From Tabrizicola sp. (lineage in GTDB: Bacteria; Pseudomonadota; Alphaproteobacteria; Rhodobacterales; Rhodobacteraceae): a DNA stretch of 45,800 nt. Below are positions 18,565 through 27,485 of the stretch, piece after piece (the stretch's first letter is position 1; every line of letters starts with the position of its first letter). Where the stretch lies: positions 1-45,800 of the forward strand of contig NZ_JAEULP010000030.1 of assembly GCF_016792905.1 (NCBI RefSeq). The letters run 5' to 3'. A program made the position numbers and the translations under genes. The notes below the pieces were generated by a model. The model was given only the letters and a program-made list of their open reading frames with translations, was not told where the DNA came from and searched no databases.

Positions 18565-19347
18565 ATGCGTGGATTGCAGGGCAAGGTGGCGATCGTGCCG
18601 GGCGGCGCCACCAAGATCGGCCGGGCCGTGGTCGCGGGGTTCCGCGCCGCCGGAACGCGGGTGATGGTGGCGGATATCGTCGAACCGGCGGGCGATCTGG
18701 CGGGCGATCTGGGCGAAGGGGTCGGCTTTTGCCGCTGCGACCTGCGCGACGATGGCCAGATTGCCGCCCTGGTGGCCGAGACCACCCGGCGCTTTGGCCG
18801 GATCGACTTTCTGGTCAATGTCGCCTGCACCTATCTGGACAATGGCGCCGCCTCGACCCGCGCCGAATGGCTTGAGGCGCTGGACGTGAACCTTGTCGGC
18901 TCGGTCATGCTGATGCAGGCGGCGCGGGCGGAACTGGCGAAGAACCGGGGAGCCATCGTCAACTTCGGCTCAATTTCCTCGCGCGTGGCGCAGACCGGGC
19001 GCTGGCTTTATCCGGTGTCCAAGGCGGCGATCCTGCAACTGACGCGCAATCAGGCGATGGACCTCGCGCCCGAGGGCATCCGCGTCAACGCCGTCAGCCC
19101 CGGCTGGACCTGGTCGAACATCATGGACCAGCTGACCCACGGCAACCGCGCCAAGACCGACGGGGTGGCCGCGCCGTTCCACCTGCTTGGCCGCGTGGCC
19201 GACCCCGAAGAGGTGGCGGCCACGGTGCTGTTCCTGTGTTCGGACGAGGCGAGCTTCATCACCGGCACCGATATCTGCGTGGATGGCGGCTACACCGCCA
19301 TGGGACCGGAACGGGCGGAACCGGCCATTCCGAAGCTGATGGACTGA
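18565..19347 (+). CDS. Short-chain dehydrogenase/reductase of the oxygenase cluster (IifB-like)
   Basis: A 260-residue SDR with [20 protein letters not shown] at the nucleotide site, where Pro replaces the usual Thr of TGxxx[12 protein letters not shown] carries an acidic residue that favours [15 protein letters not shown] takes the place of NNAG, and [10 protein letters not shown] and YPVSKAAI supply the catalytic Ser, Tyr and Lys. The GATKIG form and the tail [20 protein letters not shown] are reminiscent of the SDR encoded in indole-oxidation (iif) clusters. It lies 24 bp before the flavin monooxygenase and is probably co-transcribed. In iif clusters the SDR acts after the initial oxygenation of indole. 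The exact substrate here is unknown. Confidence 0.85.
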
Positions 19348-19371
19348 ACCGGACAGAACAGGGAGAGAGAG

Positions 19372-20604
19372 ATGAGAAAGATCACCATCATCGGCGGCGG
19401 GCAAGCGGGGCTGCAACTGGGCATCGGCCTCTTGCAAAAGGGCTACCGCGTGCGCATCGTGCAGAACCGCACGGCAGAAGACATCGCCACCGGTCGCGTG
19501 CTGTCCAGCCAGTGCATGTTCTCGAACGCGCTGGCTCATGAAGCCGCCCTTGGCATCGACTTCTGGGCCAAGGACTGCCCGCCGGTGCAGGGCATCAACT
19601 TCATCGTGCCGAACCCGGATGGATCGGGCACGCGGCTGATCGACTGGGCCGCGCGGCTGGACCGCGACGCCCTGTCGGTGGACCAGCGCGTGAAGGTGCC
19701 CCGCTGGATGGCCGAGTTCGGCCGGCTGGGCGGCGAGATGGTGATCGCCGATGCCGGGATTGCCGAGATCGACGCCTATGCCGCCGAGGATGACCTGGTG
19801 ATCGTTGCCTCGGGCAAGGGCGAGGTCGGCCGCATGTTCGCCCGCGATGCGGAGAAATCGGCCTATGACAAGCCGATGCGCGCCCTTGCCCTGACCTATG
19901 TGACCGGCATGACGCCGCGCCAGCCACATTCCGCGGTGGAGTTCAACCTGATCCCCGGCGTGGGTGAATACTTCGTCTTTCCTGCCCTGACCAGCACCGG
20001 CCCCTGCGAGATCATGGTATTCGAGGGCATCCCCGGCGGGCCGATGGATTGCTGGGCCGATGTGACGACGCCCGAGGCCCACCTGGCAAAATCGCTGGAG
20101 ATCCTGACGACCTTCCTGCCCTGGGAATACGAACGGTCGAAGAATTGCCAGTTGACCGATGCCAACGGCATCCTGGCCGGGCGCTTTGCCCCGACGATAC
20201 GCCACCCGGTCGCCACCCTGCCCTCGGGGCGCAAGGTGCTGGGCCTGGGCGATGCGGTCTGCCTGAACGATCCGATCACCGGGCAGGGGTCGAACAACGC
20301 GGCAAAGGCGGCGGCGGTCTATCTCGACCGCATCCTCGCCCATGGCGAGGCGCCCTTTGACGAAGCGTTCATGCAAGGCACCTTCGATGCCTTCTGGGCC
20401 TATGCGCAATGGGTGGTGCGCTGGACCAACATGCTGCTCTTGCCGCCGCCGCCCTTCATCCTGGACATCATGGGGGCGGCCTGCGGCGAGCCGCGGCTGG
20501 CGCACCGGATGGCGAACGGCTTCGACGACCCGCGCGACTTCTTCCCGTGGTTCGCCGATCCGGCCGCCGCCGGTGCCTATCTGGCCCAGCTGAAGGCGGC
20601 CTGA
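19372..20604 (+). CDS. StyA-like FAD-dependent monooxygenase (styrene/indole oxygenase family)
   Basis: A 410-residue product close to the StyA length of about 415. It begins with the dinucleotide motif ITIIGGGQAGLQLGIGLL. RVLSSQCMFSNALAHEAALG, the later VLGLGDAVCLNDPITGQGSN and a Trp-rich C-terminus (FWAYAQWVVRWTNMLL) match group E flavoprotein monooxygenases, which use reduced FAD delivered by a separate reductase to epoxidise styrene or indole. A flavin reductase gene follows after one base. A ribosome site (GGGAGAGAG) precedes the start. The SDR, reductase and AraC regulator around it favour an indole-type (iifC/indA) enzyme over styrene catabolism, since no StyC/StyD genes are present. 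Confidence 0.88.
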   Translation: MRKITIIGGGQAGLQLGIGLLQKGYRVRIVQNRTAEDIATGRVLSSQCMFSNALAHEAALGIDFWAKDCPPVQGINFIVPNPDGSGTRLIDWAARLDRDALSVDQRVKVPRWMAEFGRLGGEMVIADAGIAEIDAYAAEDDLVIVASGKGEVGRMFARDAEKSAYDKPMRALALTYVTGMTPRQPHSAVEFNLIPGVGEYFVFPALTSTGPCEIMVFEGIPGGPMDCWADVTTPEAHLAKSLEILTTFLPWEYERSKNCQLTDANGILAGRFAPTIRHPVATLPSGRKVLGLGDAVCLNDPITGQGSNNAAKAAAVYLDRILAHGEAPFDEAFMQGTFDAFWAYAQWVVRWTNMLLLPPPPFILDIMGAACGEPRLAHRMANGFDDPRDFFPWFADPAAAGAYLAQLKAA

Positions 20605-20605
20605 G

Positions 20606-21100
20606 TTGGGCAGCCCCGTCGATCGCGACAGCTTTCGCACGGCCATGGCGCGGTTTCCCGGCGCGGTCACTATCGTGACCAGCCGGGCCGGACCCGAACG
20701 GCGCGGCATCACCGCCACCGCGGTCTGCTCGGTCAGCGCCGATCCGCCAAGCCTGCTGGTCTGCCTGAACCGCAAGACCGGCACCTGCGCCATGGTGCGT
20801 GAAACCGGGCGATTCAACGTCAGCCTGCTGGCGGGCGAGGCGCAGGCCATCGCGCTGCGCTTTGCCGGGGCGGACGGTGCCACCGGCGAGGGCAAGTTTA
20901 GCGAGGGCCGCTGGCACGAGGACGGGCATGGCCTGCCGGTTCTGGCCGATGCGGTGGCCAATTTCTCGTGCGAGGTGGCCGAGATGACCGATGCGGGTTC
21001 GCATACCGTGTTCATCGGCCATATCGCCGAGATCGATCTGGGCGAGGGGCCGGCGCTGGTCTACGAACAGTCGCGCTTTCACCGGCTGCAGGCGCTCTAG
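20606..21100 (+). CDS. Flavin reductase (StyB/IifD-like)
   Basis: A 164-residue product with a TTG start at 20606, one base after the monooxygenase stop. No ATG or GTG gives the full domain. It has the flavin-reductase-like split-barrel motifs FRTAMARFPGAVTIVTS, GITATAVCSVSADPPSLLVC and FNVSLLAGEA, and ends with the family's HTVFIGHI...YEQSRFHRL. It would reduce FAD or FMN with NAD(P)H for the adjacent two-component oxygenase. The domain is complete (usual length about 160-180). The tight spacing indicates translational coupling. Confidence 0.88.
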   Translation: MGSPVDRDSFRTAMARFPGAVTIVTSRAGPERRGITATAVCSVSADPPSLLVCLNRKTGTCAMVRETGRFNVSLLAGEAQAIALRFAGADGATGEGKFSEGRWHEDGHGLPVLADAVANFSCEVAEMTDAGSHTVFIGHIAEIDLGEGPALVYEQSRFHRLQAL

Positions 21101-21271
21101 GCTCCAGCGTCCAGGCTCATTGATCGTCAGAACCAGTCGCCGGGCTCGGACGGTGTCTCTGGTCAAGTTCGGTGCTTGATCGGTGCGCCAAGTTGACGCA
21201 GGGTAGCCCGGTGGTAGCGGACCGTCTGGTGAGACGCCTTGAGCCAGGATCTGCGGGTGTGGGATCTGAAA

Positions 21272-22024
21272 ATGTCTTTCAAGCCTGTGTCTCTGGCGAT
21301 CATCTTCACCATCGCTTTCCTCACGGGCGCGCCCACGAAGGCCGAGGTAAGCCAGGAGGCCGAGCTGGATCTGGCTCTTCGCCTTGCGGTCCTGCTGCAA
21401 TCGGCCCGTGCCGTCATCGGGGCAGAGCAGGCGCTGATCAATGATCCCGCAATCGGCGACAAGGGATTGACGGGCAAAGAGGTTCTGGCCCGCGCCACCA
21501 AGGCATTCGTGGAAAAGACCGGCGCGCCGCCCCTGAGTGACGGCATGGACGCGCGCGAGGCCGACCTTATCTCGGCCCTGATGGCCTCGATCACCGAGGT
21601 GATGGATGCCAACGCCGCGTCGATCAACCGTGAAGGCATCGCGTTCAAGGGTTTCGTGCCGGCGGTCTTTGGTCGCCTCGTGAACGAAACCTTCCTGAGC
21701 AAGGCCGGGGACCGAGCCGAAATCAAGGTCACCGCGCCAATGAGCCTCGTGCGCAACCGGAAGTCCCGACCCGACGCCTGGGAGGATCAGGTCATCACCG
21801 AATACCTGCTTTCTCCCGAATGGCAGAAGGGAGCCGTCTACTCCAGCCTGACCGAGACCGGAGATCGCGAAGCCTTTCGCGTCATGGTTCCCGAATACTA
21901 CACCGAGGGCTGTCTGGCCTGTCATGGTTCGCCGGCGGGCGAAGTCGATGTCACGGGCTATCCCAAGGAAGGCGGCGCGCTTGGCGATCTGGGTGGCGTG
22001 ATCAGCATCACCCTCTACCCGTAA
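21272..22024 (+). CDS. Periplasmic c-type heme protein, Tll0287-like/DUF3365 sensor
   Basis: A 250-residue product. The ATG at 21272 gives a signal peptide ([18 protein letters not shown]); a TTG 11 codons upstream is possible. The mature part is helical ([20 protein letters not shown]), followed by the region [18 protein letters not shown] single c-type heme site CLACHG has C214, C217 and H218. Tll0287-like domains bind heme c in a PAS-like fold and occur alone or at the sensor end of kinases. The gene ends 8 bp before a histidine kinase, so it probably serves as that kinase's separate periplasmic redox or gas sensor. The start has only a weak ribosome site. Confidence 0.85.
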
Positions 22025-22032
22025 GGCCGCGA

Positions 22033-24828
22033 ATGGCGCGGTTGGATCGAGTGGCCAATATGCTGGGGCGAGTGTCGATCTTCGCGCGACTGGCGTTTCT
22101 GGCCATCGTCCTGCTGGCGGCCCTGATCGGATCGAACGCCTATCTCGGACAGCGCCTTTCGCGCAATGCCGAGGCGATCGCGCAAGAGGTGGCGCGGGTC
22201 GGCGAACTGCGCCTGGCCTATTCTGCGGCGGCCCGCTTCGGCGAATTGAAATACTGGCTTTCGGATCTTGCCGTCAGCCTGCTCATGCGGTCCGAGAGCA
22301 ATGCCAACGCCGCCCATGATGCGCTGATGGCCGATCTTGACGCGCTTGAGCCGATGGCGCCCGACAGTGTCGCGCGGATCCGCAAGGAAGTGGCCGCCTT
22401 GCGGGAGCAGGCCTTCCTGGCGGTCGATGCCTACAGCCAAGATCAGCGTGTTCTCGGCAACTCGCTGGTGGCGCAAGGCCAGTCGCACATCCTGAATGTC
22501 GACGCGGAACTTGGCGCATTGGTAGACCGGCTGGAGGCGCAGGCAGTCACGACTGGGCAGGACGCGCTTACCTCGGCAAATTCGGCCGTCACTCGCGCCA
22601 CGCAGATCTCGGTTGTGGCGGCGGTCCTTGGGCTTTTGCTGACGCTTGGGATCATCGCCACGATCACCAATCCCCTGCGTCGCGTGATGTCTGCGATGAC
22701 GGAAATTACAGGCGGGAATCTCTCGACGCCGATCCCGGATGCCGGTCGCGACGAGATCGGCGTGATGAGTCGCACCCTGGGCCTCTTCCGCGACAGCCTG
22801 CGAGAGCGCGAGGCGCTGGCGGCGAAACAGCGCGAACTCGTCACGAGCCTTGCCGAAGCCCGGGACGAGGCGATGCGTGCCACCACGGCCAAAAGCCAGT
22901 TCCTCGCCAGCATGAGCCATGAAATCCGCACGCCCATGAACGGCATCATCGGGATGAGCAATCTATTGCTCGATACTGACCTCCCACCTGAACAGGCGGA
23001 ATTTGCACGCACCATCAACGACAGCGCCGAAAGCCTGCTGACGATCCTGAACGATATCCTGGATTTCTCGAAGGTCGAGGCGGGCAAGCTGGATCTGGAG
23101 CGCGTGGCGTTCGACTTGCGCGAATGCATCGAAGGGGCGCTTGACCTTGTGGCAATGGCCGCGGGCAAGAAGGGTCTGGACCTTGCCTATGTGATCGAAA
23201 CCGAGGTTCCGCAGAGGATCGTCTCGGATCCGACCCGGTTGCGGCAGGTCCTCCTCAACCTTTTGAACAACGCGATAAAGTTCACCGAAAAGGGCGAGGT
23301 CGTCCTGACCGTCGGACGCGAAGGCGGTGCGGCGGCGGAGGTCGACGACTGCACCCTGCGCATGACCGTCCAGGATACCGGGATCGGCATCCCGCCCGAC
23401 CGGATCGGCCGGCTTTTCCAATCCTTCACGCAGGCAGATGCCTCGACCACGCGCCGCTTTGGCGGAACAGGCCTTGGACTTGCCATCAGCCAGCGGTTGG
23501 TATCCTTGATGGGCGGAGAGATCGGGGTGACAAGCGAACCCGGAAAGGGCTCCAGCTTCAGCTTCACGATCAGGGCGCCGGTGGCCGAACAGATACGAGC
23601 GGTCCGCATCAACGAGGCGCGTCCCGATCTTGAAGGCAGGCGCGTGCTGATCGTCGATGACAATACCACGAACGGCCAGATCCTGACGCGCCAGTGCGAA
23701 ATCTGGTCGATGAAGCCGACATATGCAACGGGACCTGCCGAGGCGCTGGTGCTGCTGCGTGATGGCCAGCGATTCGACATCGCAATTCTTGACATGCATA
23801 TGCCCGACATGGACGGCTTCGGCCTTGCCCAGGCGATCCGCGACCTGCCCGATCCCCAGCCGATGCCACTGATCCTGCTCAGCTCTCTCGGCCATGCGGG
23901 TGATCATGATGCCGGGGCGCTGAAAACCGCTGGTTTTGCCGAGGTCATGGCCAAGCCGATAAAGCCCTCGACGCTGCTCAACGCGCTTCTGACCATCGCG
24001 CTTGGTGAGCCCGCACGGGTTCTTCCCCACCGGCGCATGGACCGCCCTCGCATCGACGACCAGCTTGCGGCAGAACTGCCGGCCCGGATCCTGCTGGCCG
24101 ACGACCATCCAACCAACCAGAAGCTCGGCGGGATGATCCTGAAGCGGCTGGGCTATCGCGCCGATGTCGCTGGCAACGGGTTGGAGGTGCTGGAGGCGCT
24201 GGAGCGCCAGCCCTACGACCTGATCCTGATGGACATCGAGATGCCCGAGATGGACGGGGTCGAGACAACGCGTCGGATCATCGCGACGTATCCGGAAGGC
24301 AAGCGGCCGAAGATCGTCGCGGTGACGGCCAACGCGATGGAGGGAGACCGCGAGCGCTTCATCGCGGCCGGAATGAGCGACTATGTGAGCAAGCCCATCC
24401 GTGTCGAAGCATTGGTGCGGGCCCTGAGAGCCTGCCTTGATGGCGGCCTGGAAACGATGGGGGAACCAATGTCCGCACCCGAAGGCGAACTGGACCCCAA
24501 GGCCCTTGCACAGCTTCTCGATGTGATCGGCGGCGACCATGCTGCCTTCAGGGAACTGGTCCAGAGCTTTCTTGATGACGGCCCCGGGCTGGTGAATGGC
24601 CTTGCTGCGGCGGTTGAAGCGAATGACGCCGACGCCCTGCGCCGTGCCGCCCACACCCTCAAGGGCAGCGCGACGGATTTCGGGGCCGTTGCCCTGGAGG
24701 CACTCTGCCGCGAAATCGAGGCGATCGGGCGGGAGGGCGAGGTCGCCGCCGCCGCCTCCCGGGTCGATGCGGTAATGCGGGAATACAAGACTGTGGAAAT
24801 GGGCCTGAAAGGCCTGCTGGTGGCCTGA
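22033..24828 (+). CDS. Hybrid sensor histidine kinase (HAMP-HisKA-HATPase-REC-REC-HPt)
   Basis: A 931-residue inner-membrane kinase. TM1 is at about 18-38 ([20 protein letters not shown]), followed by a periplasmic helical domain of about 155 residues, TM2 at about 195-215 ([20 protein letters not shown]) and HAMP ([16 protein letters not shown]). The kinase core has [13 protein letters not shown] (H296), the N box [24 protein letters not shown] and [10 protein letters not shown]. Receiver 1 has its phospho-acceptor D587 in [11 protein letters not shown] and receiver 2 has D734 in [11 protein letters not shown]. The C-terminal HPt has H874 in [13 protein letters not shown]. This full phosphorelay can pass phosphate to an external receiver, and the next gene encodes one. 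Confidence 0.92.
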
Positions 24829-24840
24829 AACGGCAGGACG

Positions 24841-26382
24841 ATGGGGAGAATGGCAATGGCGGGGTTCCGCGGCAGGGTTCTTGTGGTCGACGACCACAAG
24901 CAGACCCGCCTGAAAATGACACTGGCGGTCCGCAATCTTGGCCACGATGTCGAGGAAGCGCCGGATGGTGCAGCGGCTCTCGGGCGCCTTGCCCAGGGCG
25001 GCATCGACATGGTCGTGCTCGACATCGTCATGCCGGGAATGGACGGCTTTCAGGTCTTGCAGGCGATGAAGGCCGACACTGCCTTGCGCGACGTGCCAGT
25101 CATCGTGATCTCCTCGCTTGAGGAAATGGACGATGTCGTCAAGGCCATCGAACTGGGGGCCGAGGATTTCCTGACCAAGTCCTTCGACATCGTCCTTTTG
25201 CGGGCGCGCATCAACGCGGGGCTGGAACGCAAGCGCCTGCGCGACAAGGAGCTGGAGTATCTGCGCCAGGTCGACCGGCTGGCAAGCGCATCGCGTATGG
25301 TCGAGGGCAAGGGTTTCGATCCGTCACGGCTTGGGCTGGACGACATTTCGCGCCGCGACGACGCGCTGGGCAACCTCAGCCGCGTCTTCGTGACCATGGC
25401 GAGCGAGGTCTACCGCCGGGAACAGAACCTGCGCAGGACGATCAGCCTCCTCAAGGGCGGGTTCCTGCTGCTGCTGATCGGCGCGCTGTGGGGGGTGATC
25501 CCGTCCCTGTCGCGCATCGTCATGCAAGAGGGCCTCAGCCCGTTCGGTGTCATATTCTGGACGCTCTGGTGCAGCGCCACGATCATGATCTTCCTCTCGA
25601 TCGTGTCCGGGCAGTACCCGGGCCGAAGCCGTGCCGACCTCGCGCGATATGGCCTGATCGGCCTGATCGGCGGGGCGCTTCCACAGATGACGTTGTTCTG
25701 GGTCGCCGAAAACCTGCCGGCCATGGTGATCTCGATCATCCTGGCGGTCGAGAGCTTCATCGTGTTCGCTGTGGCTGCACTGATCGGGCTGGAGGCCCCC
25801 AGTCTTAAGCGGTTCATCGGACTGAGCCTCGGCCTTGTCTGTGTTCTGATGATCATCCTGCCCGGCGGCGGCGCAATTGGGTCCCACGGCTGGATCTGGA
25901 TTCTGGCGGCGCTCCTGGTTCCCGCTTTTTACGCGGCCGAAGGCCTTATGATCGCCTCTTTGCCCGAGACGGCCTCCGGCGCGATCGGCACAACGACCGG
26001 CATCGTCGTTGCATCGGCGCTGATTGCCACTCCCATCTCGGTGCTGAGTGGCTCGTTCATCCCCGTGAACGAAGTCATCAACGGCGTTGGCTGGGCCTTT
26101 CTCCTCATCGCCGCAATGAGCGCGACGAGCATGGTGCTGTCGGTGATCGCGGTCCGCACCACCGGGGCCGTCTTTACCAGCCAGGTCGGCTATGCCGCGA
26201 CCGGCGGAGGCATCATCTGGAGCATCATCCTTCTGGGCGAACATATGACGGGTTGGATCGCCGCCGCGATTGCCTGCCTGATTTCGGGCGTGGCGCTGGT
26301 CATGCCCAAAGCATACGGGGACGATGACGAGGAGCACGTTTTTCTCGCAGATCCCGCGCCCGACACCCGCGCAGCGAAATAG
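24841..26382 (+). CDS. Receiver domain fused to an EamA/DMT-family transporter
   Basis: A 513-residue protein with two unrelated parts. Residues about 10-130 form a CheY-like receiver with RVLVVDDHKQT (acid pair), the phosphoacceptor D61 in VVLDIVMPGMDG, VIVISSLEE (Ser/Thr switch) and K113 in FLTKSFD. A linker of about 80 residues, charged and helical, follows. Residues about 205-490 form ten hydrophobic segments of the drug/metabolite transporter type (LLLIGALWGVIPSLSRIVMQ, GALPQMTLFWVAENLPA, MSATSMVLSVIAVRTTGAVF). It lies 12 bp after the hybrid kinase. The obvious reading is a transporter whose activity is set directly by phosphorylation rather than through transcription. Start 24856, with GGGGAG seven bases upstream, is an alternative. 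Confidence 0.9.
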   Translation: MGRMAMAGFRGRVLVVDDHKQTRLKMTLAVRNLGHDVEEAPDGAAALGRLAQGGIDMVVLDIVMPGMDGFQVLQAMKADTALRDVPVIVISSLEEMDDVVKAIELGAEDFLTKSFDIVLLRARINAGLERKRLRDKELEYLRQVDRLASASRMVEGKGFDPSRLGLDDISRRDDALGNLSRVFVTMASEVYRREQNLRRTISLLKGGFLLLLIGALWGVIPSLSRIVMQEGLSPFGVIFWTLWCSATIMIFLSIVSGQYPGRSRADLARYGLIGLIGGALPQMTLFWVAENLPAMVISIILAVESFIVFAVAALIGLEAPSLKRFIGLSLGLVCVLMIILPGGGAIGSHGWIWILAALLVPAFYAAEGLMIASLPETASGAIGTTTGIVVASALIATPISVLSGSFIPVNEVINGVGWAFLLIAAMSATSMVLSVIAVRTTGAVFTSQVGYAATGGGIIWSIILLGEHMTGWIAAAIACLISGVALVMPKAYGDDDEEHVFLADPAPDTRAAK

Positions 26383-26864: not shown

Positions 26865-27485
26865 GTGACCAAACGCACCTCTGCCAAGTACAAGATCGAC
26901 CGCCGCATGGGCGAGAACATCTGGGGCCGTCCGAAGTCCCCGATCAACAAGCGCGAGTACGGTCCGGGCCAGCACGGCCAGCGCCGGAAGAACAAGCTGT
27001 CGGACTTCGGGACGCAGCTGCGCGCCAAGCAGAAGCTGAAAGGCTACTACGGCGACCTGACCGAAAAGCAGTTCCGCAAGATCTATGGCGAAGCCGAGCG
27101 TGTGCGCGGCGACACCGGCGAGATGCTGATCGGCCTGCTGGAGCGCCGCCTGGACGCGGTGGTCTACCGCGCCAAGTTCGTCCCGACGATCTTCGCTGCC
27201 CGCCAGTTCGTGAACCACGGGCATGTCCTGGTGAACGGCAAGCGGGTGAACATCGCGTCCTACCGTGTGTCGGAAGGCGACGTGATTTCCGTCCGCGAAA
27301 AGTCGCGCCAGATGGCGGCCATCGTCGAGGCGATTGCCCTGACCGAGCGGGACGTGCCTGACTATCTGGAAGTCGACACCCACAAGCTGACCGCGAAGTT
27401 CGTCCGCACCCCGGGCCTGGGCGACGTGCCCTATCCGGTGCAGATGGAACCGAACCTGGTCGTCGAATACTACGCCAAGAACTGA
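26865..27485 (+). CDS. rpsD: 30S ribosomal protein S4
   Basis: A 206-residue product with a GTG start and GAAGGAGA ribosome site. The N-terminus is [20 protein letters not shown], and the body has the S4 signature ([20 protein letters not shown]) and the S4 RNA-binding domain ([20 protein letters not shown]). It binds 16S rRNA early in 30S assembly. In enterobacteria S4 also represses its own operon. Here it is a single gene with its own promoter and a strong terminator after it, the usual arrangement in alphaproteobacteria. Confidence 0.98.

Follow-up and report, generated by a model that had tools for sequence, protein, structure and literature searches.

Here, we describe a putative signalling cassette in a 45,800-nucleotide stretch of Tabrizicola sp. 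DNA (contig NZ_JAEULP010000030.1, positions 1 to 45,800; hereafter the window), centred on a gene whose product joins a CheY-like receiver domain, a helical linker and a ten-helix drug/metabolite transporter (DMT) of the EamA type. That both domains lie in one open reading frame (ORF) is confirmed. Judging from the sequence, the window quite likely encodes a self-contained His-Asp phosphorelay whose terminal output is transport itself, and transport would probably be turned up or down directly by phosphorylation, not by switching genes on. With somewhat less assurance, we propose that response regulators have here an output of a new class: the cassette would be widespread and mobile, and its complete sensor-kinase-Hpt relay would gate DMT transport via a HAMP-like lever into the first transmembrane helix (TM1). 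The fusion gene and its parts are as follows:

24841..26382, plus strand: receiver, putative HAMP-like linker and EamA/DMT transporter fusion protein, 513 amino acids (aa) (Pfam, AlphaFold2, Foldseek, relatives)
24871..25236, plus strand: receiver domain, residues 11-132, with D17, D18, D61, S91 and K113 (Pfam E 2e-26, conservation in 55 fusion ORFs)
25213..25452, plus strand: linker, residues 125-204, formed by a helix, a connector and a helix continuous with TM1, probably HAMP-like (Pfam HAMP in relatives, AlphaFold2)
25453..26325, plus strand: ten-helix EamA/DMT transporter domain, residues 205-495 (Pfam E 8.6e-15, AlphaFold2, Foldseek)

The gene is a single 513-aa ORF on the plus strand with no internal stops. 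In Pfam, residues 13-124 match Response_reg (E 2e-26) and two stretches match EamA, most strongly residues 205-339 (E 8.6e-15), with no further domain in the chain; no kinase core is fused to it, unlike in the SLC5/STAC or Amt-type sensors, and no EIIA-type domain of the phosphotransferase system (PTS) is present at E<=0.01. The residues D17, D18, D61, S91 and K113 are all in place, and the receiver profile is closest to PleD and other receivers of solved structure. An earlier sequence-only reading had described a complete receiver, with D61, K113 and an acid pair (found here as D17/D18), and a ten-helix EamA/DMT transporter in the same chain, with which Pfam, the individual residues and the AlphaFold2 model agree.

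Relatives were collected by scanning genome contigs with a linker-plus-transporter profile built from 12 of 17 sequences, and the best 80 of 273 relatives were kept; all 80-locus counts refer to this set, with domains called by hidden Markov models (HMMs) built here. In 50 of the 80 loci, receiver, linker and transporter form one ORF. The sequence-only reading had named two findings that would speak against a genuine fusion, a stop or frameshift between residues 130 and 205 and homologues that always occur as two separate genes; the former was looked for and is absent, the linker being open, and the latter fails against the one-ORF relatives. The nearest relative, L078, is 83% identical to the window protein (95% in the linker), and the ratio of nonsynonymous to synonymous divergence (dN/dS) between the two is about 0.12 overall; by part, it is about 0.13 for the transporter, 0.09 for the receiver and 0.05 for the linker. 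Because the fusion recurs in 50 of 80 loci and its 83%-identical relative has diverged under low dN/dS, it is neither chance nor an assembly error. The chance that two genes were merged by an assembly or frame error is practically nil, and we rule this origin out on the 50 further loci with the identical one-ORF fusion and on the open linker with its dN/dS of about 0.05. Two-gene homologues as the rule were likewise rejected, broken or split copies being limited to single loci (L031, L086 and the third copy in L047).

At E<=1e-60, whole-genome searches gave fusion matches for 7 of 295 genomes when the family was sampled, 13 of 390 for the order and 1 of 385 for the class; with a profile at E<=1e-80, the phylum yielded 3 of 398. 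The window's own genome is counted every time, and the genome sets overlap. By record title, most fusion loci belong to Alphaproteobacteria, chiefly Rhodobacterales and Hyphomicrobiales, with hosts that include Ruegeria marina, Mesorhizobium and Devosia species. The outliers are one Pseudomonas (L067) and one bin called Rhodothermales (L052), the latter placed among alphaproteobacterial sequences in the transporter tree. The fusion is also found in three Mesorhizobium plasmid records, and RefSeq labels the plasmid copies 'response regulator' in the two records examined. In a tree of 84 transporter sequences, from which transporter parts shorter than 250 residues (L086) were omitted, a branch with support 100/99 separates all 54 fusions, together with L064:8356-9879 from Alloyangia mangrovi, from the rest. 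The L064 transporter thus lies inside the fusion clade, its locus has no receiver or kinase, and it is likely a case of secondary receiver loss. On these sequences, the simplest reading is a single origin followed by transfer between lineages, and it seems that the cassette travels and diversifies as one block in which the sensors can be exchanged.

A phage-integrase-family gene lies near the cassette at L054:3382-4191, with the same cluster in L061 and L063, which fits a mobile cassette. On the Mesorhizobium loti plasmid pML2037 (L017:9950-19802), relaxase and TraG genes are found close to the cassette, and a 2-hydroxyacid dehydrogenase gene comes after it. In Brevirhabdus (L047:8332-17015), one kinase is surrounded by two intact receiver-transporter genes and by a third copy split over two ORFs, and two fusion copies also occur in L046, L051 and L054. 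At L031:7759-10490 the receiver-transporter is without its N-terminal part and adjoins an upstream 388-aa ORF, of which the locus has two copies and which may be part of an insertion element, and in L086 the fusion is split over two ORFs. In Jannaschia pagri (L032:9795-11345, by its length on the contig of L085 too) the receiver frame continues upstream of the first ATG/GTG/TTG, so that the start codon is unusual or the start damaged. One of our alignments omitted a row with a stop codon and L101.

In the window, the fusion is preceded by the remaining parts of the putative relay (the wider system of sensor gene, relay and cassette family escaped the sequence-only reading):

21272..22024, plus strand: Tll0287-like (DUF3365) gene for a predicted periplasmic c-heme sensor (Pfam PF11845 E 1.1e-15, motif CLACH; ORF opens at 21239)
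22060..24828, plus strand: hybrid histidine kinase HAMP-HisKA-HATPase-REC-REC-Hpt (Pfam; ORF opens at 21820, likely start ATG 22060)
24484..24822, plus strand: Hpt domain of the kinase, phosphoacceptor H945 in ORF numbering (Pfam Hpt E 1.8e-16)

The likely start of the Tll0287-like gene (ATG 21272) and its signal peptide are our own reading of the sequence. The opening of the kinase ORF at 21820 falls inside this gene, and the start at ATG 22060 is preferred because the kinase ORF of L078 begins 37 nt after the corresponding sensor gene. The H-box HEIRTP is at residue 367 of the kinase ORF, and 12 nt separate the kinase stop from the fusion start. The window therefore encodes hybrid kinase, Hpt and terminal receiver together, with the phospho-residues present (H-box, two receivers, H945 and D61). 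The order of sensor, kinase and fusion is identical in all eight other loci of this Tll0287-like (TLL) type, and a CxxCH motif, CLACH in the window, is present in all nine.

Across the family, the relay accompanies the fusion almost without exception. Of the 50 fusion loci, 47 contain a kinase core and 48 an Hpt domain; one or both are missing only in L065, L075 and L079 (L075 has the Hpt), each on a contig of 3.3-5.7 kb. No kinase lies in any of the 30 loci that lack a fusion, within stretches of 4.1-18.9 kb. A neighbouring hybrid kinase, which the sequence-only reading had suggested mapping, is thus the rule and no coincidence, and so is the Hpt. Among the 47 kinase loci, the Hpt is a separate gene in 38, lies within the kinase in eight, as in the window, and is arranged in its own way in L081; kinase and fusion share a strand in 45. 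In 10 of the 50 fusion loci, the end of one ORF runs 4 nt into the other where Hpt and fusion adjoin. In L081:8608-12669 (Gemmobacter straminiformis) receiver, linker, transporter, kinase, receiver and receiver are encoded in this order by one continuous 1353-aa ORF, and a separate Hpt comes next; this is the only one of the 50 fusion loci in which the transporter is fused to a kinase core. When neighbours were counted across the 51 fusion loci that include the window, the most frequent were the kinase (46) and a stand-alone Hpt (28), then sensor genes, and next an ABC ATPase (6 loci) and a short-chain dehydrogenase (SDR; 5), both common kinds of gene.

The residues needed for phosphotransfer are also conserved. 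Asp61 of the fusion is present in 54 of 55 fusion ORFs (one gap), K113 in all 55, and D17 and D18 each in 52, with three gaps. With the window included, the HisKA motif is present throughout the 48 kinase cores, the acceptor Asp occurs in every one of the 48 first receivers of the kinases and of the 47 second ones, and the phosphoacceptor His in each of the 49 family Hpt domains. The conserved Lys could be placed in 18 of the 48 rows of first kinase receivers, the other 30 having a gap there, and in one first receiver V and N replace the acid pair.

Whole-chain AlphaFold2 modelling, with an input alignment of 51 sequences, gave a mean predicted local distance difference test score (pLDDT) of 85 and a predicted template modelling score (pTM) of 0.67. 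In the model, an alpha/beta receiver leads into a long helix at 115-153, after which come two short ones and then a helix at 173-227 (model numbering for both) that extends unbroken into the first membrane helix; the remaining transporter helices follow, and we count ten membrane-spanning helices in all. A fold search with the whole chain gave only receiver-containing matches among the best 50 of 1311, and the transporter part was therefore modelled alone (pLDDT 87.4, pTM 0.86). Its best Foldseek matches are of the DMT type, namely the triose-phosphate translocator (TPT; 5y78, E 1.9e-6) and the choline importer LicB (7b0k, TM-score 0.85 over the target), with nucleotide-sugar transporters also among the best. 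By sequence search at E<=1, no solved transporter relative was found, the only solved match being NarQ, via the linker.

The linker is probably a diverged or degenerate HAMP-like signal converter whose second helix runs into TM1. At E<=1, 29 of the 50 linkers in the family have a Pfam HAMP match, the strongest with E 6.4e-6; an earlier set of linkers gave 6 of 17 at E<=10. The sequence-only reading had described about 80 charged, helical residues that could transmit the signal; signal transmission gains some support from these weak matches, and the plain charged helix is refined to a degenerate HAMP-like converter. A similar helix follows the receiver in two rhizobial loci among the receiver-only matches, which from their sequence motifs we take to be receiver-class III cyclases, and it is plausible that the fusion arose when a cyclase output was exchanged for a transporter.

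We envisage the following chain of events. In the window, as the gene order suggests, the periplasmic Tll0287-like c-heme protein would sense redox state or nitric oxide (NO) and act on the membrane kinase, a role that a solute-binding protein or the kinase's own GAF domains could fill in relatives, as detectors of a redox/NO or solute signal. The kinase would then autophosphorylate and the phosphate would pass from His to Asp in its own receivers, to His in the Hpt and finally to Asp61 of the fusion, along residues that are all present. Phosphorylation is expected to repack the receiver, so that alpha5 and the HAMP-like linker, in the predicted fold, would shift the helix that runs into TM1; this shift may open, close or bias the DMT transporter within seconds, with no transcription step.

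The sensors are of several kinds. A sensor-type gene lies within 600 nt of 34 of the 47 kinases, and the recognised classes are family-3 or family-3-like solute-binding proteins (18 loci, both HMMs taken together), TRAP-type DctP proteins (8) and Tll0287-like proteins (8). Some kinases of loci without such a gene contain GAF domains (L035), the scanned kinases carry HAMP, PAS, GAF or periplasmic sensor parts of their own, and one shows a weak resemblance, short of the Pfam cut-off, to the TorS sensor domain (E 1.2e-5). According to PMC12889525, Tll0287/DUF3365 is a Cache family that binds heme; members fused to signalling modules have NO-sensor properties, whereas stand-alone ones probably have redox roles. 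By analogy, the signal in the window may be redox state or NO, redox sensing being at least as likely because the Tll0287-like copy is a separate gene. The neighbouring genes gave no consistent hint of the transported substrate.

The same parts could also work in the opposite direction, with the transporter domain as a sensor (a transceptor) in which solute binding sets the phosphorylation or dephosphorylation of the receiver or the kinase, and with the output elsewhere. Given KsAmt5, the SLC5/STAC kinases and the domain order of L081, this is the strongest rival explanation, and we judge it unlikely. Fusions of sensing transporters with kinases do exist, as excerpts of the papers on KsAmt5 (PMC8534201) and the SLC5/STAC kinases (PMC9100948) describe, and in L081 transporter and kinase share one chain. 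However, in all of the 50 loci but L081 the transporter is joined to a phospho-acceptor and not to a kinase, the kinases scanned have their own sensor parts, and 34 of 47 also adjoin a sensor-type gene. In 42 of the 51 fusion loci (window included) there is, moreover, no receiver protein beyond kinase and fusion that could serve as the output, although one could sit elsewhere in the genome. It is quite improbable, in our estimate, that the EamA part is a mere membrane anchor, with the protein acting as a phosphate sink or as a receiver kept at the membrane to bind a partner. Such a role would suit the faster divergence of the transporter part (mean identity 0.41, versus 0.59 for the receiver) and the absence from the fusions of 33 of the 52 columns conserved in non-fused relatives. 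A complete ten-helix DMT fold predicted with good confidence, purifying selection on the EamA part (dN 0.117, dS 0.926 against L078) and the conservation of G214, G218, R324, G327, G331 and W353, none of them part of the motifs by which the loci were retrieved, all argue against it; ten conserved helices would be superfluous for anchoring, and the anchor is less likely because the full fold is under purifying selection. Control by protein partners or acetyl phosphate in place of the neighbouring kinase appears very unlikely. The most similar receivers outside the family, among the matches opened, belong to receiver-cyclases, which other kinases could read, whereas kinase and Hpt are encoded in 47 and 48 of the 50 loci, mostly on the same strand and in one case within a single chain.

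A number of findings nevertheless weigh against a relay that ends in transport through a HAMP-like lever. The window's own linker has no Pfam HAMP match, and the best solved match of the linker profile is NarQ, in a region that we take to be its HAMP domain, at a weak E of 0.09 with a sensible register. In L081 the transporter is N-terminal to the kinase, an order also seen for transporters that act as sensors. Of the 52 columns conserved in 29 non-fused relatives, only 19 are kept in the 54 fusions, and this shared conservation is partly due to the pattern motifs with which the loci were found, which bias the conservation of those motifs in loci without a fusion. Pairwise distances across 41 loci correlate between receiver and transporter (r 0.90) and, likewise far beyond 500 permutations, between the transporter and the core of the kinase (r 0.85, with no permuted value above 0.13), a point in favour of the relay that shared inheritance alone can also produce; this test omitted loci with two fusions, loci without kinase or Hpt, and L040, L079, L085 and L086. 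On the input side, 13 of the 47 kinase loci have no recognised sensor gene, and the commonest sensor class (HMM 'C4') is unmatched in Pfam for the three members scanned, 44-53 bit cross-hits to the family-3 solute-binding (SBP3) HMM hinting weakly that it is family-3-like.

Other outputs are encoded in some of the cassettes, which also counts against transport as the sole end point. Seven of the 51 fusion loci hold another receiver protein (L050, L055, L058, L060, L075, L085 and L087): a receiver-cyclase in L058 and L087, a lone receiver in L085, a partial ORF in L075, and DNA-binding regulators in the remainder, of the OmpR type beside a second kinase in L050 and L060 and of the sigma-54 type in L055. 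The extra receivers in L043 and L047 are pieces of a broken kinase or fusion ORF. Among neighbour clusters present in three or more loci, which were those considered, a GerE-type regulator occurs in L056, L058 and L087 and a Trans_reg_C-TPR protein in L057, L063 and L072, each without a receiver match in the one member scanned. A second output, transcription included, is possible in loci with extra regulators. Because these regulators are confined to few loci, the cassette does not regularly include one for transcription. The receiver-guanylate cyclase genes (Pfam) at L058:6944-8002 and L087:5481-6536, both on the minus strand, lie inside the cassette, and the relay may feed two outputs there.

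Direct control of a transporter would set the proposed relay apart from the systems it resembles. Two-component systems generally act through DNA binding, enzymes or protein contacts. The relatives' cassettes in which a solute-binding protein gene lies beside a hybrid kinase and an Hpt recall TorT-TorS, which we take to be a phosphorelay with a sensory binding protein; TorR-type output is DNA binding, whereas DNA-binding response regulators occur in only 3 of the 51 fusion loci, two of them beside a second kinase. PleD and the receiver-class III cyclases share an N-terminal receiver of the same type, to judge by the profile match to PleD, but the proposed output in the window is an integral-membrane transporter, joined to the receiver by a HAMP-like linker. 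Transporters of the EamA/DMT kind such as YddG (presumably PDB entry 5i20), LicB and TPT share the predicted ten-helix fold and have neither receiver nor linker. In SLC5/STAC kinases (CbrA, CrbS and RpuS; excerpts of PMC9100948) and in KsAmt5, a transporter-kinase fusion described in excerpts of PMC8534201 as inefficient at ammonium translocation, transporter and two-component domain also share one chain, but their transporter is the input of a kinase, while that of the window sits on the terminal receiver, in the output position. The lactose permease LacS, with its EIIA-Glc-like domain, is similar in that a transporter is fused to a phospho-acceptor domain that modulates transport. It differs in that the phosphate comes from the PTS protein HPr to an EIIA-like domain and in that its transporter is not a DMT, whereas the acceptor in the window is a CheY-like receiver beside a kinase and an Hpt.

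Section 12 of a 2023 review (PMC10710835) names LacS as the sole bacterial transporter under direct phosphorylation, in contrast to eukaryotes, and the terms 'response regulator', 'two-component' and 'receiver' are absent from the searched portions of that review. Because LacS is called the sole case, control by His-Asp transfer would make transport an output of a new kind for response regulators. A literature search limited to open-licence PubMed Central papers and judged from titles and abstract openings recognised no receiver-EamA protein, which fits the statement of the sequence-only reading that no characterised example was known. Term searches of the available text likewise found no such protein in a signalling census (PMC1183210) and an archaeal census (PMC5847659), and no EamA in an Azospirillum regulator survey (PMC4618731) and a marine two-component survey (PMC6365647); in the excerpts of a marine-bloom paper (PMC12487129) EamA and receivers are given as separate units. 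No NCBIfam model for the fusion is among the best 25 of 97 matches of the window protein or 25 of 118 of the members, all of which are two-component models. The phosphorelay itself is thus of a known kind, and we could not find the transporter output class described in the literature searched.

If the proposal is true, this would be the first transporter known to be under the control of a His-Asp phosphorelay and, beside LacS, the second case of a bacterial transporter regulated by its own phosphorylation. It would provide control of transport on the scale of seconds, free of transcription, and a new role for HAMP-like modules in driving a transporter from the cytoplasmic side. The conserved cassette of sensor, relay and transporter makes phosphorylation control of transport directly testable, with named host strains, a single residue (D61), several kinds of sensor and the single-chain L081 as assets.

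Directly upstream of the cassette, the window encodes an SDR, a styrene-monooxygenase-like flavin adenine dinucleotide (FAD) protein and a flavin reductase (18565-21100). These genes were rejected as part of the system, the SmoA-like and flavin-reductase queries being unmatched in the eight other TLL-type loci, where the SDR query had one match (L076, 35% identity). Downstream of the fusion, rpsD is located at 26865. In six genomes of the same genus, sensor, kinase and fusion were unmatched in the stretch upstream of rpsD, about 4 to 13 kb long (tblastn, E<=1e-20, >40% of the query), and in the five same-genus genomes sampled in the family and order searches the fusion was unmatched at E<=1e-60. 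Because these genomes are without matches, the cassette in the window looks like an accessory insertion; its G+C content (0.63-0.64) is close to that of the window (0.65).

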